A stretch of 64,000 bases of DNA from Bryocella elongata (GTDB lineage: Bacteria; Acidobacteriota; Terriglobia; Terriglobales; Acidobacteriaceae). A model generated the notes under the pieces. It did not search any database and had not been told where the DNA came from. It worked only from the letters and a program-made list of their open reading frames with translations. The position numbers and the translations under genes are program-made. This document shows positions 35,952 through 40,724 of the stretch, piece by piece. Each line of letters starts with the position of its first letter. Position 1 is the first letter of the stretch. Location of the stretch: positions 434,001 through 498,000 of the forward strand of contig NZ_FNVA01000004.1 in assembly GCF_900108185.1 (NCBI RefSeq), written 5' to 3'.

Positions 35952-36140
<189 letters not shown>

Positions 36141-36193: not shown

Positions 36194-36991
36194 TTATGGA
36201 TGTTCTTGCTCACCCGCGAGCACGGAGTCGCTGTTACGGTGGCACTCTCCATACATCTTGTGCCGACCACACCAACAAGGCAGCGTCGGCTTAATCTGAC
36301 GGAGATGCTCCGCCGGCGTCATCGCCTTGGCCGAGCGGCCTGGCCAATAGCCCGACCAGAAATCCATCGCCCGCGCGGGACCGCTTCGCGTCTGTACCCA
36401 TTGGAAGCGCGGAGCATCTTCGACAATCGCCTCGCCGGGTAGCGGCTGATAAAGCGGAGTGACGACGTGGCCGATCTTCCGGCAGAGCCTTCGGGTGCGG
36501 AGCCAGACCAGATGTTTCGCGACGTACTGCGTGAGCTGGTCGAGAAACTGCGTGTAGTAGTCCGCGTCTTCAACGAATCGAAACTCGGCACTTGAAAACA
36601 CGCACAGGCCGGGCAGCGGCCTGCCACTGTAGTCAATGGTTTGGTCGCTCCTCGGGTGCGGGTGGACCGCGGTATCGGCGTAGTACGGCTGGTAGCGCGG
36701 ACTAAGCAGGTAAGCGCGCGGCACGGCGTCCGGCTGCGTGCAGACCATCACCTCGCACGGCGCCGCCATGTTCACTAACAGCGGGTGCGCCCAGTGGCTT
36801 TCTGTAGACGCGCCGGGACGAATCGAGCCAGCAGAGATCCATAGCGTGCGCTCGGCCTCGATGTCGCAAAGGATGGAGCGCGCGGCAGCATCGTCTGAAT
36901 AGGGCTGAATCACACCGCGCCAGGCGGAAACCGTCAGCCCATCGGCTGGCGGCTCCGCCTGGACGAATTGCTGGTAGTCCGGCGTTAGCAT
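36194..36991 (-). CDS. E2 ubiquitin-conjugating-like protein with C-terminal SEC-C motif
   Basis: 265 residues. The middle of the protein follows an E2-like pattern: a proline/aromatic segment PRAYLLSPRYQPYY, then HPHP (residues 110-113), then PLPGLCVF with Cys130 at the position of the E2 catalytic cysteine, and a helical C-lobe DADYYTQFLDQLTQYVAKH ending in WLRTRR. The C-terminus has an intact SEC-C zinc motif, CWCGRHKMYGECH (residues 239-251), found in many proteins that bind other proteins or ribosomes. E2 similarity is by motif only. It is five bases downstream of the DUF3892 gene and probably translated with it. It is placed at the integration end of the element, a common spot for defence cargo. 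Confidence 0.55.
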   Translation of the reverse strand: MLTPDYQQFVQAEPPADGLTVSAWRGVIQPYSDDAAARSILCDIEAERTLWISAGSIRPGASTESHWAHPLLVNMAAPCEVMVCTQPDAVPRAYLLSPRYQPYYADTAVHPHPRSDQTIDYSGRPLPGLCVFSSAEFRFVEDADYYTQFLDQLTQYVAKHLVWLRTRRLCRKIGHVVTPLYQPLPGEAIVEDAPRFQWVQTRSGPARAMDFWSGYWPGRSAKAMTPAEHLRQIKPTLPCWCGRHKMYGECHRNSDSVLAGEQEHP

Positions 36992-36996
36992 CGGCT

Positions 36997-37353
36997 TTAC
37001 TTCAGCAACTTCACGCCGACACAGTGGCCGCGCTGCACCGGCGCGGGACGGTACGGGGCCGGCGACGGCGCGACAGCTTGAGTGTGCCGGCAGATTGGCA
37101 GCCGGCCCAGGTTGTCCGTGACGACCCCGTCGCGGTGGGTTTCGAGGAAACGGCGGGTGCCGTTGTGGGCAACGCGCACGTCAGCTTGGTTGCCCTTGTC
37201 GTCGCGCACGGCAAATCTCTCCGTGCCGGCGTTGATCGCCGCGATGGCCTGCGCCTCGGTGAAGTGTTTCAGCGCGCCGGTGGCGCTGTCCGTGCCCCCG
37301 ACCGCAGCGATGCTGCCATTTGATGCGTGGGTAATACAACCTAGGTAGATCAA
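36997..37353 (-). CDS. DUF3892-like protein
   Basis: 118 residues from TTG at 37353, which has AAGGAG six bases upstream; an alternative GTG at 37380 would add nine residues but has no ribosome site. The pattern fits DUF3892: a first strand with a THASNGSIAAVGG turn, an ALKHFTEAQAIAAINAG helix, FAVRDDKGNQADVRV, and the RFLETHRDGVVTDNLGRLP ending. DUF3892 is small and its function is not known. It is the first gene of a two-gene operon with the E2-like protein; a dyad shared with the sigma operon is 60 bases upstream. Confidence 0.7.
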   Translation of the reverse strand: MIYLGCITHASNGSIAAVGGTDSATGALKHFTEAQAIAAINAGTERFAVRDDKGNQADVRVAHNGTRRFLETHRDGVVTDNLGRLPICRHTQAVAPSPAPYRPAPVQRGHCVGVKLLK

Positions 37354-37412
37354 AGTTTTCTCCTTATTGCGGGCTCCCACCGTATACTCGGCGATGGTAT
37401 GTTCACCCCATC

Positions 37413-37430
37413 TAACGAAGGGGCGTTACA
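37413..37430 (-). promoter_or_regulatory. Dyad operator TAACG-N6-CGTTA, copy 1
   Basis: Inverted repeat TAACG/CGTTA with a six-base spacer, 60 bases upstream of the DUF3892 start and 50 bases upstream of the divergent metalloprotease gene. The 18-base site differs at only one position from a site upstream of the sigma factor gene at 39256-39273. Confidence 0.65.
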
Positions 37431-37480
37431 GGACATCGGCACATGGCTGGAATCGACAGATTTCGTAAGGAGGCTGCCGG

Positions 37481-37993
37481 ATGGGCGAAGTACGTTATCC
37501 GTTTGTGAAGCAGATGGTGAAGAAGGTTTTGAGGGACAGTAAGATTGTCGCTGCTCCCGTAGACCTTGTGGCGATTCTGACCAAGCACGGGATTGAATAC
37601 GAGGAACTGGACGATTTGCCCGACTCAGTTGATGCAATGATCGTCGAAGACGGCGACGGCCAGACCCACGCGATGGTCAACGCAAACCATCACCCTCACC
37701 GCCAGCGTTTCTCGCTCGCGCATGAGTTGGGTCACTACTTCTTACATAAGGGTGCTTCGTTCGGAGAATCCGTGAGTATCGATAACCCTCCGTCCGGCGA
37801 AGAGATAATCATCAATACAAAATCACCCGAAGAAGCGGAGGCGGATTTCTTCGCGGGGGAATTGTTGGTGCCGCTTGAACTCCTCAAGGCTGAGTCCAAC
37901 AAGCAAATTCCTCATCTATCCAAGGTTTTTGCCGTCAGCGAGCAGGTCGTCAGTATCGCTGTCAGCCGACATATGAATGCACTTTTCAAATGA
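37481..37993 (+). CDS. ImmA/IrrE family metallo-endopeptidase
   Basis: 170 residues with the zinc site HELGH (81-85) in RFSLAHELGHYFLH and a third ligand in the EAEADFFAGELLVP segment. ImmA-type proteases cleave phage- or ICE-type repressors to switch on the element; IrrE-type act in stress responses. AAGGAGG precedes the ATG. It is divergent from the DUF3892/E2-like operon and convergent (8-base overlap) with an HTH protein gene that is a natural candidate substrate. Confidence 0.9.
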   Translation: MGEVRYPFVKQMVKKVLRDSKIVAAPVDLVAILTKHGIEYEELDDLPDSVDAMIVEDGDGQTHAMVNANHHPHRQRFSLAHELGHYFLHKGASFGESVSIDNPPSGEEIIINTKSPEEAEADFFAGELLVPLELLKAESNKQIPHLSKVFAVSEQVVSIAVSRHMNALFK

Positions 37994-38648
37994 GCAGATC
38001 TGCCCGGCCCTTGCGTTCTAACTCTTTGGCAAGCTTTTCGATGAATTCCTCTACACCAGCGTTAGCGGGTGGTGCTGCCGACGCTTTGGCTGCTTTCTTC
38101 TGATGAAGCCGGGCGGCAATCACATCTAGCGCTCTCTCGGTGTCCTCGCCTCTTCGGTCATGACGTAAACCGCCATGTGAACGCGCCGCCGCCTTCAAAC
38201 CGTGTTTTGTCGCGCTGACATCGGTGCTTACGTTCATAGTGGCGGATGCTTGGCTGATCGTGACGCGAAAGAGCATTAGCACATTCGCGATATCCGATGG
38301 AGGGAGAGCTGTAGGGTGGACATCTCCTCGCTCAATTCTGGACACGAACGCCTCATCCTTGTACAGCCGATTCGCTATTTCAAGTCTGGTAAGTTTTGCT
38401 TCGTCGCGAATCGCCTCGATGAATCTTCCAAAGGGTAAGATTTTTGAACCGACAGCCGTACGGCCCTTTTCGATAGCGTCATTCTGAATTTGTGTAGTTA
38501 GCCGCGCCTTCAGTCGTTCGAGGCGTTCATTCGGTTCGGGAAGATGTTGACCGAGCAGGCAATCGACCCTTTCGTCAGTCATCTCTAACTCAATCTCCCC
38601 TCGGCTAATCAATTGGCGAAGTCCCGAGTTCAGTTCCCTTTCATTCAT
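37986..38648 (-). CDS. HTH (XRE-like) protein in operon with the sigma factor
   Basis: 220 residues. A helix-turn-helix of the Cro/C1 type lies at about residues 72-130 (FIEAIRDEAKLTRLEIANRL, then AFVSRIERGD). The N-terminal ~60 residues are charged and the C-terminal third is a coiled, Ala/Lys-rich tail. Its start overlaps the end of the sigma factor gene by eight bases, so the two are coupled. It may act as an anti-sigma or as a repressor binding the shared dyad, and be removed by the neighbouring ImmA-like protease; this is inference from context. Confidence 0.7.
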   Translation of the reverse strand: MNERELNSGLRQLISRGEIELEMTDERVDCLLGQHLPEPNERLERLKARLTTQIQNDAIEKGRTAVGSKILPFGRFIEAIRDEAKLTRLEIANRLYKDEAFVSRIERGDVHPTALPPSDIANVLMLFRVTISQASATMNVSTDVSATKHGLKAAARSHGGLRHDRRGEDTERALDVIAARLHQKKAAKASAAPPANAGVEEFIEKLAKELERKGRADLLI

Positions 38649-39135
38649 CTCCGGACACCTCCCTTTCCGTGGCGATTTCGCTTTCTTCCGACTGCTCTAG
38701 CGTGATGTTCAGTTTCTTCATGGCGCGTAAGTGTCGTACTCGTGCTGCTGTTTCTTTGATGCCGAGCCATCCGGCGATGTCGGCATATGAGCAATGATCT
38801 GCCCGCCACAGCACGATGTTCCGATCCCACTGCGTAAGCGCTTCCAACTTTACCTTAAGCTCGTCTAGCAGCGCCCTATTCAGGCCGGCGCATTCGGTCT
38901 TTCCCGGAGGTGGCGCGATCTCCCCGATCTCCTCCAGAGAGACGCTCTGGACGCGACATTGCCTATGAAAGTCGATGGCGCGATTCTTTGCGATTTCAAA
39001 AATCCAAGTGGTGAGTTTCGCGTTGCCCAGGCGAAACGTAGAGATCTTCCTATAGGCGCTATACAGAGCGTCGGAGGCGCATTCCTCTGCGTCAAGTTCG
39101 GGAACGTTCAACGTGGACGCCAGGTAGTTCGCCAC
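38641..39135 (-). CDS. ECF-type RNA polymerase sigma factor
   Basis: 164 residues from the GTG at 39135. Region 2 includes AEECASDALYSAYRKISTF and KLTTWIFEIAKNRAIDFHR; region 4 has LTQWDRNIVLWRADHCSYADIAGWLGIKETAARVRHL. Sigma-like sequence continues in the same frame upstream of this GTG (FVSELKSG, then AWERLFARLLQP) to a stop at ~39247, but no ATG, GTG or TTG occurs there, so the true start may be non-standard or the 5' end damaged. It is coupled to the HTH gene; a dyad shared with the DUF3892 operon lies at 39256-39273. Confidence 0.8.
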   Translation of the reverse strand: MANYLASTLNVPELDAEECASDALYSAYRKISTFRLGNAKLTTWIFEIAKNRAIDFHRQCRVQSVSLEEIGEIAPPPGKTECAGLNRALLDELKVKLEALTQWDRNIVLWRADHCSYADIAGWLGIKETAARVRHLRAMKKLNITLEQSEESEIATEREVSGDE

Positions 39136-39255
39136 GGGCTGGAGAAGACGCGCGAAGAGACGCTCCCAGGCGGACGTGGACCCGCTCTTCAGCTCCGAGA
39201 CAAACTGCGGCGAGTTGATATCGTCGAACGACGTGGCAAAGCCCTCTCAAATCTT

Positions 39256-39273
39256 TAACGTAGGGGCGTTACA
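39256..39273 (-). promoter_or_regulatory. Dyad operator TAACG-N6-CGTTA, copy 2
   Basis: Seventeen of 18 positions match the site at 37413-37430, in the same orientation relative to a minus-strand gene. Directly upstream of the sigma factor frame, pointing to shared control of the sigma/HTH and DUF3892/E2-like operons. Confidence 0.65.
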
Positions 39274-39310: not shown

Positions 39311-40462
39311 TCATTGAGCTAGAACGGGTAGCTCTGTGGCGACGCTGGCGGCTTGAGGAATAGGTCGAATCCCATTGCTCTTACTGGCTAGCGGCTTCGG
39401 TTTCGCAGGCTTAGTCACGAGCGATTCCAGAGCGTCGCGTTTCGCTTCCATGCGAATGTGGCTGTAGTGCTTGAGCATGTTCCGCGAGACGTGCCCCGCG
39501 ATATCCATGATCGTCTGCTCGCCAGCGCCGCTCTCAGCGAGATCGGTGATGAGCGTGTGACGGTGATCGTGCCAGCGGCCCGTCACTTTGGAGTTCCGTC
39601 GCACTGTATCCCAAGCTGTCTTGAGCGTGGTCACGGGCCGCGTCGGGTCGCTCGGCCTGGGCTTCCCAAAGGGGAAGAGATACCACTCGGGCCGTATCTC
39701 TGAGAACACGACCTCGTACCATTCGGCGTATTCAGCCAGCGTCTCGGAGAGTGCCGAGTTGAGGGGAATGGTTCTCCCCTCGCCAGCCTCCGTCTTGCTC
39801 TTGCCGACCGTCAGGTATCCCTTCTTGAGGTCTACCTGTGCCCAGGTGAGCTGCTTTAGCTCCGCATCGCGGATACCCGCGTTCAGAGCCAGCATGATTG
39901 CCGGGTAGATGTGTGGCGACTTCGACTTCCGAGCCTCAGTCAGCATTCGGTCTTTTTCTTCCGTGCTGTATGCCTTGCCGATGGGTTTGCCCACCTTCAA
40001 TTTGAGCAGGTTCCGCTTGCGAAGCCGAATCCGCAGCAGGTCCCCCGGATCGCCCATGAGACGCAAGAGGAAGCCAACTTCATCGTTGACAGTCTTTGGG
40101 GCCGCACCACCCGCCAGTCGCTCATTTTGATACGAGGTGACGACCGCTTCGTTGCAGTCGATGAACATCCGGCTCCCGATTACGCGGCTGATGTGTCCGA
40201 CCGCATAGGCAGCGAAGGTTGCAGATTGGGGGTGCCGCAGCTTGTAGGCAATGAGGTATTCATCGGCCAAATCGCTGATCGTCCGAATGCGTTCCTGACG
40301 TGTGTCAGTGATGTTGTTGAAGCCCTGTTCAAGTTCGCGTTTACGATTCTGTTCTGCAGTTTTAGCGAGAGTCTTGGAAGGGCTCTTTGTTGATTCCCGG
40401 ATGCGTCTCCCGGCGAAATAGAACTCGTACCACCAAACATCACCACGAAGAAACAGTGCCAT
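39311..40462 (-). CDS. int: Tyrosine site-specific integrase
   Basis: 383 residues. Catalytic residues of the tyrosine recombinases are visible: Arg198 in NAGIRDAELKQLTW, a lysine in the GKSKTEAGEG beta-hairpin, His298/Arg301 in WHDHRHTLI, His324 in GHVSRNM and the nucleophile Tyr333 in LKHYSH. The N-terminal part (~60-140) is a SAM-like core-binding domain. It is likely to integrate the element at tRNA-Asn, though it lies 3.3 kb from that site with the sigma/E2-like block in between. Just upstream is an excisionase-like gene. Confidence 0.93.
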   Translation of the reverse strand: MALFLRGDVWWYEFYFAGRRIRESTKSPSKTLAKTAEQNRKRELEQGFNNITDTRQERIRTISDLADEYLIAYKLRHPQSATFAAYAVGHISRVIGSRMFIDCNEAVVTSYQNERLAGGAAPKTVNDEVGFLLRLMGDPGDLLRIRLRKRNLLKLKVGKPIGKAYSTEEKDRMLTEARKSKSPHIYPAIMLALNAGIRDAELKQLTWAQVDLKKGYLTVGKSKTEAGEGRTIPLNSALSETLAEYAEWYEVVFSEIRPEWYLFPFGKPRPSDPTRPVTTLKTAWDTVRRNSKVTGRWHDHRHTLITDLAESGAGEQTIMDIAGHVSRNMLKHYSHIRMEAKRDALESLVTKPAKPKPLASKSNGIRPIPQAASVATELPVLAQ

Positions 40463-40475
40463 AGCCGGGCCCCTC

Positions 40476-40724
40476 TTATGCTGTCTTGCGGACGCCCCCG
40501 TGTGAACTTTGCGCCTTGGAAGGTGGAATCCTTCCGAGCTCGCGTGTCCCGCCGGAAGGTTGTGATTCCATCCACTGACTTAAATCGTACTCCCCATAGC
40601 GCACCAATGTACCCAGCTTGCGAAACTTTGGTCCGCGGCTCTCCAGCCTCCACCGGCGCAGCGTTCCGAGGCTGATGTGAAGCCGCTCCGAGATGTCCTG
40701 CTCTGTCAGAAAGTCGTTGTCCAT
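40476..40724 (-). CDS. Excisionase-like HTH protein (AlpA/MerR-type)
   Basis: 82 residues, winged HTH_17 fold: FLTEQDISERLHISLGTLRRWR, RGPKFRKLG and the final VRYGEYDLSQWM. Such proteins act as recombination directionality factors or regulators of element genes. It precedes the integrase by 13 bases on the same strand and is probably cotranscribed. Start ATG at 40724. Confidence 0.85.
   Translation of the reverse strand: MDNDFLTEQDISERLHISLGTLRRWRLESRGPKFRKLGTLVRYGEYDLSQWMESQPSGGTRELGRIPPSKAQSSHGGVRKTA

Follow-up and report, generated by a model that had tools for sequence, protein, structure and literature searches.

A DUF3892-E2 gene pair beside a likely protease switch in Bryocella elongata: a possible E1-less conjugation module related to type II-short CBASS

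In type II CBASS (cyclic oligonucleotide-based antiphage signalling systems) the cyclase, a CD-NTase, is conjugated via a C-terminal Gly or Ala (PMC10097602, PMC11153139). One form of these systems carries Cap2 (E1-E2) and Cap3 (JAB), the type II-short form a CD-NTase and a single E2, as in the CdnG-E2 of Serratia (PDB 8yjy/8hsb). In known bacterial ubiquitin-like conjugation the modifier is either ubiquitin-like or the CBASS cyclase itself. The single E2 of the Serratia system reportedly processes the cyclase tail itself, without an E1 (Yan et al. 2024). Here we describe a locus of Bryocella elongata in which a DUF3892 protein sits where the CD-NTase does, directly upstream of a single E2. 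It lies in a stretch of 64,000 nucleotides (RefSeq assembly GCF_900108185.1, contig NZ_FNVA01000004.1, positions 434,001 to 498,000; hereafter the window, with positions counted from its first letter). We tentatively read the locus, with about as much doubt as confidence, as a module for protein conjugation that works without an E1, is switched on by stress and is akin to the E2 arm of type II-short CBASS, DUF3892 being the proposed modifier. The literature that we searched, which included few subscription papers and no preprints, contained no description of the DUF3892-E2 pair and no paper dealing with CBASS and SEC-C together.

The E2-like protein (265 residues; 36194..36991, minus strand) is a single E2 with a C-terminal SEC-C domain. 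An earlier reading made from the DNA letters alone (the sequence-only reading) had recognised an E2 in the motifs HPHP and PLPGLC with Cys130, and this was borne out: HPHP occupies residues 110-113, PLPGLC ends at Cys130, and fold comparison supports a ubiquitin-conjugating (UBC) fold in which His and Cys are conserved and which is homologous to that of the CBASS E2s. The catalytic-type pair, His112 and Cys130, is invariant in 12 of 12 aligned E2s, and at seven other loci the E2 has an open frame, the active-site residues and the same DUF3892 partner, at 30-63% identity to the window E2. The SEC-C tail, which the same reading called exact, matches below the Pfam cut-off in the window (E=0.017, 15.4 vs 20.4 bits), but the relatives L004 and L005 pass it. 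Two PADLOC E2 models, PDLC00865 and PDLC00872, are reached by four and three of eight family members, respectively, the window E2 reaching neither. Neither an E1 nor a JAB gene was found among the eight proteins scanned at 36.2-42.0 kb, in agreement with the earlier remark that none is adjacent; no genome-wide search for them was made. Relatives of the E2 were absent from the plasmids, phages and viral contigs scanned, and a scan of genome contigs with the 265-residue protein returned three loci, each already among the known relatives. Many weak matches shared SEC-C only, some being frames some 950 codons long that probably encode SecA and others small proteins, and were excluded from the E2s; L056, L057 and L059 were regarded as having SEC-C only and L058 as a chance match, and L055 is a fragment at a contig start. 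L054, from genome G105, has an E2, beside which neither DUF3892 nor a CD-NTase was recognised.

The DUF3892 protein (PF13031, E=4.4e-8, above cut-off) is encoded at 36997..37353 on the minus strand. Its longest open reading frame runs from GTG 37380, but the start is likely to be TTG 37353, given that a close relative, L045, begins with an ATG at the same codon. A structure model was poor (predicted local distance difference test, pLDDT, 51.8) and no PDB fold stood out. The protein ends in ...YRPAPVQRGHC-VGVKLLK, and it is this tail that sets the E2-linked proteins apart: 21-30 residues follow the last Cys of the domain in 8 of 8 cases, as against 0-8 in all 16 measurable stand-alone DUF3892 proteins. 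These controls comprise 8 of 12 family-genome matches for which no E2 lies nearer than about 1.5 kb, together with 8 of the 9 plasmid records opened (74 matched); L093 has a stop inside the DUF3892 match and the ends of L131 and L132 are identical, while L096, L102, L104, L128 (without end motif) and L107 (in a 611-codon frame) were excluded. The E2-linked tails are mostly proline-rich and all eight end in [S/G]-H-[G/S/A/C] plus 1-9 residues; shuffling gave a mean of 0.17 and a maximum of 3 in 20,000 trials, for a pattern that was set post hoc from the same data. A similar [FYH]G-x(1-4) end is found on CD-NTases beside single E2s. There [FYH]G lies among the last residues, no more than 8 from the end, in 10 cases (1.1 expected) out of 12, the set being L053, L108, L110 and nine hand-picked from 77 matched, some of them closely related; examples are FHG-TEQS, FYG-D, FHG-IDQG, FYG-Q, FFG-RKI, FHG-GRV and TFG-SDE, and the misses are L143 (FAG) and L144. 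The link to type II-short CBASS, in E2 fold, His/Cys, gene order and upstream tail, and the E2-specific tail of DUF3892 go beyond the sequence-only reading and indicate the module's likely job.

Eight loci can be read on both flanks (the window, L012, L013, L045, L046, L047, L048 and L050); L011, which is frame-broken and without an M78 match, and L049, cut by a contig start, were left out of the locus counts. In all eight the DUF3892 gene is directly upstream of the E2 gene and an M78 protease gene is divergent from the pair, and in six the divergent side consists of a helix-turn-helix (HTH) gene and the M78 gene, giving a four-gene unit. The HTH gene was assigned by Pfam and the capH model in L012 (capH E=1.3e-8) and L013 (E=8.2e-10); in L046, L048 and L050 it was recognised from its likeness to these two, and in L047 by eye. 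In L045 its place is taken by a weakly sigma-like open reading frame (Sigma70_r4_2 E=0.003, below cut-off) and a 150-residue protein. All five genes that had been grouped as one block, i.e. E2, DUF3892, protease, HTH protein and extracytoplasmic function (ECF) sigma factor, are present in the window with the families named, as the list of reading frames and the profile scans show. The related loci do not support the five as one unit: homologues occur without all five together, and the clear ECF sigma factor is found in the window alone among the readable loci, weakly sigma-like genes being present in L045 and in the CBASS locus L053. The gene orders thus suggest a unit made up of DUF3892-E2 and a protease switch, the clear sigma factor being a peculiarity of the window. 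Taken as a whole, the earlier interpretation is partly supported.

At two further loci, L051 and L052, HTH-M78 genes are divergent from an E2 gene, but there is no DUF3892 match. Directly upstream of their E2-SEC-C genes there are Pro/His-rich peptides of 40 and 49 residues (L051:1187-1309, minus strand; L052:7805-7954, plus strand), which share PGRDV and, near the end, HG, the ends being RPHG-TPPMRCN or RGSHG-DC. They are possible mini-modifiers. Downstream of the E2 in L052 (8697-10256, plus strand) we noted by eye a 169-residue possible membrane protein and a 342-residue metallo-beta-lactamase-like protein as candidate effectors.

The M78/ImmA-IrrE family protease of the window (37481..37993, plus strand; PF06114 E=5.6e-16) has HEXXH as HELGH, and its top PADLOC match is capP (E=1.4e-28). 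Next to it lies the gene of an XRE-like HTH protein of 220 residues (37986..38648, minus strand), whose HTH_31 (E=1.3e-4) and HTH_3 (E=3.2e-4) matches are both below cut-off; PADLOC gave HTH_VI only (E=0.0035) and no capH match. We propose it as the repressor and the protease target. It is translationally coupled to the ECF sigma gene, the two forming a second operon convergent with the M78 gene. The sigma frame (region 2 E=1.9e-9, region 4 E=2.5e-7) is open at 38641..39246 on the minus strand, bounded by a stop at 39247-39249, and has no ATG, GTG or TTG ahead of GTG 39135. From this GTG the first 12 profile positions of region 2 are absent and, given also the missing standard codon, the start may therefore be non-standard; in 39136-39246 an ACG after GAGAGGG is a possible start.

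Both operons are preceded by an operator-like site, TAACGAAGGGGCGTTA at 37413..37428 between the M78 and DUF3892 genes and a second copy at 39256..39271 upstream of the sigma-HTH genes, neither assigned to a strand; the consensus at both places is TAACG[A/T]AGGGGCGTTA. Exact copies of TAACGNNGGGGCGTTA number two in the whole genome, each in the module, and those of its reversed control 0, so that the DUF3892-E2 and sigma-HTH operons probably form one regulon. This exact genome-wide count is stronger evidence than the shuffle control of the window, where at up to 3 mismatches shuffles held a mean of 0.35 sites and two or more in 3 of 100. TAACG-N6-CGTTA was rejected as an ECF promoter, since the spacing of its halves is much too short for a -35/-10 pair and the sequence is a palindrome. 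Inverted repeats with arms of 10-13 nt are also found in the divergent intergenic regions of other loci, where 6 of 8 beat all 200 first-order Markov shuffles; those of L047 (40/200 shuffles as good) and L051 (173/200) are not above chance.

It is useful to compare this arrangement with CapH+CapP. According to PMC13373217, CapP is activated by single-stranded DNA and cleaves CapH, the pair controls CBASS operons as well as Bub operons, and 219 of 544 Bub operons are accompanied by CapH+CapP or CapW; a B. cereus CBASS operon has CapP-CapH upstream (PMC11153139). The likeness lies in an M78 protease with an HTH partner, divergent from the operon under control, whereas in the window the HTH protein has a greater length, lacks a capH match and is coupled to an ECF sigma factor. 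A protease/HTH switch, as in the sequence-only reading, is likely, judging from the capP match and the shared site at both promoters.

On the conjugation reading, phage infection or DNA damage would activate the M78 protease, which would cleave the HTH repressor and thereby derepress both operons, the sigma factor amplifying expression. Needing no E1, the E2 would then use Cys130 to cleave the tail of DUF3892 at the H-[G/S/A/C] junction or beside it, and would attach DUF3892 either to itself or to target proteins. With the Tyr as junction residue, the cut would precede the small residue, which would fit the Ser, Ala and Cys of five DUF3892 tails. DUF3892 may in this way take over the role of the cyclase; since no effector was recognised in the operon and no CD-NTase by SMODS, the tag itself would have to act. 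We speculate that conjugated DUF3892 acts on RNA or ribosomes and so limits infection. The DUF3892 fold has been likened, in an antiviral context, to double-stranded-RNA-binding and ribosome-hibernation (HPF-like) domains (PMC12419801); the DUF3892-Min-Wnt fusions described there likewise tie the domain to a proposed antiviral device, but there it is fused to a Wnt-like domain and here it is free-standing with an E2-specific tail.

A wider reading, which we hold with less confidence than the module itself, is that single bacterial E2s are E1-free tag writers whose exchangeable tag comes from the upstream gene (CD-NTase, DUF3892 or a 40-49-residue Pro/His-rich peptide) and which read a tail code of [H/Y/F]-[G/S/A/C] plus 1-9 residues. 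If this is true, DUF3892 would modify proteins without being ubiquitin-like and would do so independently of second messengers. A single E2 using another small modifier would make E1-free conjugation separable from cyclic-nucleotide signalling; DUF3892 would gain a testable function, and further modifiers could be predicted wherever a single E2 occurs, from the tail of its upstream gene.

In spite of these likenesses the module falls outside CBASS, because neither a CD-NTase nor an effector was recognised. None of the eight scanned proteins is a CD-NTase or a cyclic-nucleotide effector, and SMODS gave no match in the genome itself at E<=0.1, in a search with one profile against which the true CD-NTase of L004 scored just 22 bits. 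It would nonetheless work like the type II-short E2 arm, with DUF3892 replacing the CD-NTase and with an E2 that is longer, by a His-Cys insert and the SEC-C end. From type II CBASS with Cap2 and Cap3 it also differs in having no adjacent E1 or JAB and a partner that does not end in Gly or Ala. Bil/Bub-type operons resemble it in that a bacterial E2 operon is sometimes under HTH-M78 control (L109; Bub in PMC13373217), but no E1, JAB or recognisable beta-grasp modifier was found beside the E2 here.

The block lies at the integration end of an apparent conjugative element, as the sequence-only reading had it. A tRNA-Asn(gtt) gene (35952..36026, plus strand; ARAGORN) is the likely integration site, and the 48 bp of its 3' half (35982-36029) have, by pattern search and alignment, one further copy in the genome; it lies on contig C13, at a place without an ARAGORN tRNA. 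On the other side, outside the proposed module, follow a tyrosine integrase (39311..40462, minus strand; PF00589 E=1.9e-21) and an excisionase-like HTH_17 protein (40476..40724, minus strand; PF12728 E=1.2e-7; TIGR01764 E=0.001, below cut-off), and type IV secretion system-like genes with a TraI-like relaxase were read by eye, without a profile scan, at 42.8-57.2 kb. With the repeat, integrase and secretion- and relaxase-like genes so placed, the five-gene block appears to be the first cargo of the element. The host genome is 5.67 Mb; Granulicella sp. S190 is a relative in the same family.

Several other explanations have to be weighed against conjugation. The DUF3892 tail might be a docking peptide only, DUF3892 and E2 forming a non-covalent sensor complex in which the E2 conjugates something else or nothing. 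A junction residue that varies (G, S, A, C) and an extension of 1-9 residues are what a binding motif might show, and there is no E1 among the scanned neighbours; the invariant His and Cys and a tail end like that of CD-NTases beside single E2s make us doubt it, although we regard it as the strongest of the rivals. The same two residues speak against taking the E2 domain as a binding fold with SEC-C as the working part, in a protease-controlled device that is toxin-antitoxin-like or linked to transcription. HTH-M78 pairs do control such devices, and the M78 protein has a weak match to the spr1629 repressor/antitoxin model, far under cut-off, but we consider this improbable.

HTH-M78 pairs also control some integrative and conjugative elements, e.g. 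ImmR/ImmA of ICEBs1, and TnSmu1 is cited as another. The M78, HTH and sigma genes might accordingly regulate excision or transfer, with the E2 pair as an accessory, and they do adjoin the integrase and the excisionase-like gene. The rare site, however, stands at the module's own two promoters only, none being at int/xis, and DUF3892-E2/HTH-M78 occurs in other settings (by eye, L013 lies near dnaA-like and ribosomal protein genes), so we think element control unlikely. Least probable of all, in our judgement, is a decaying remnant of type II-short CBASS that has lost cyclase and effector. The kinship of the E2 with CBASS E2s and one frame-broken copy (G103:C34, L011:9091-10102) would agree with decay, but the seven intact loci and the E2-specific tail of DUF3892 would not; the genome with the broken second copy keeps an open one.

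A few neighbouring cases are worth recording. In L053 (3919-5778) a CBASS locus with SAVED, CD-NTase and E2 genes is divergent from an M78 protease, a 146-residue protein and a very weak sigma-like gene (PF07638 E=0.11); defence genes may here be under a protease-sigma switch of a second type. The 146-residue protein and its 150-residue counterpart in L045 were considered as anti-sigma factors and dropped, no profile supporting this. On a Chroococcidiopsis plasmid (L109, NZ_CP097481.1) HTH-M78 genes are divergent from multiubiquitin-E2-Mov34 genes; beyond these and an insertion sequence lie another E2 gene and a SAVED gene. Plasmids of Bradyrhizobium and Xanthomonas carry stand-alone DUF3892 genes, as do 41 plasmid records of Escherichia, of which the one opened is IncY, and in a plasmid record of Nitrosospira the stand-alone DUF3892 gene has an ImmA/IrrE protease gene as its neighbour.

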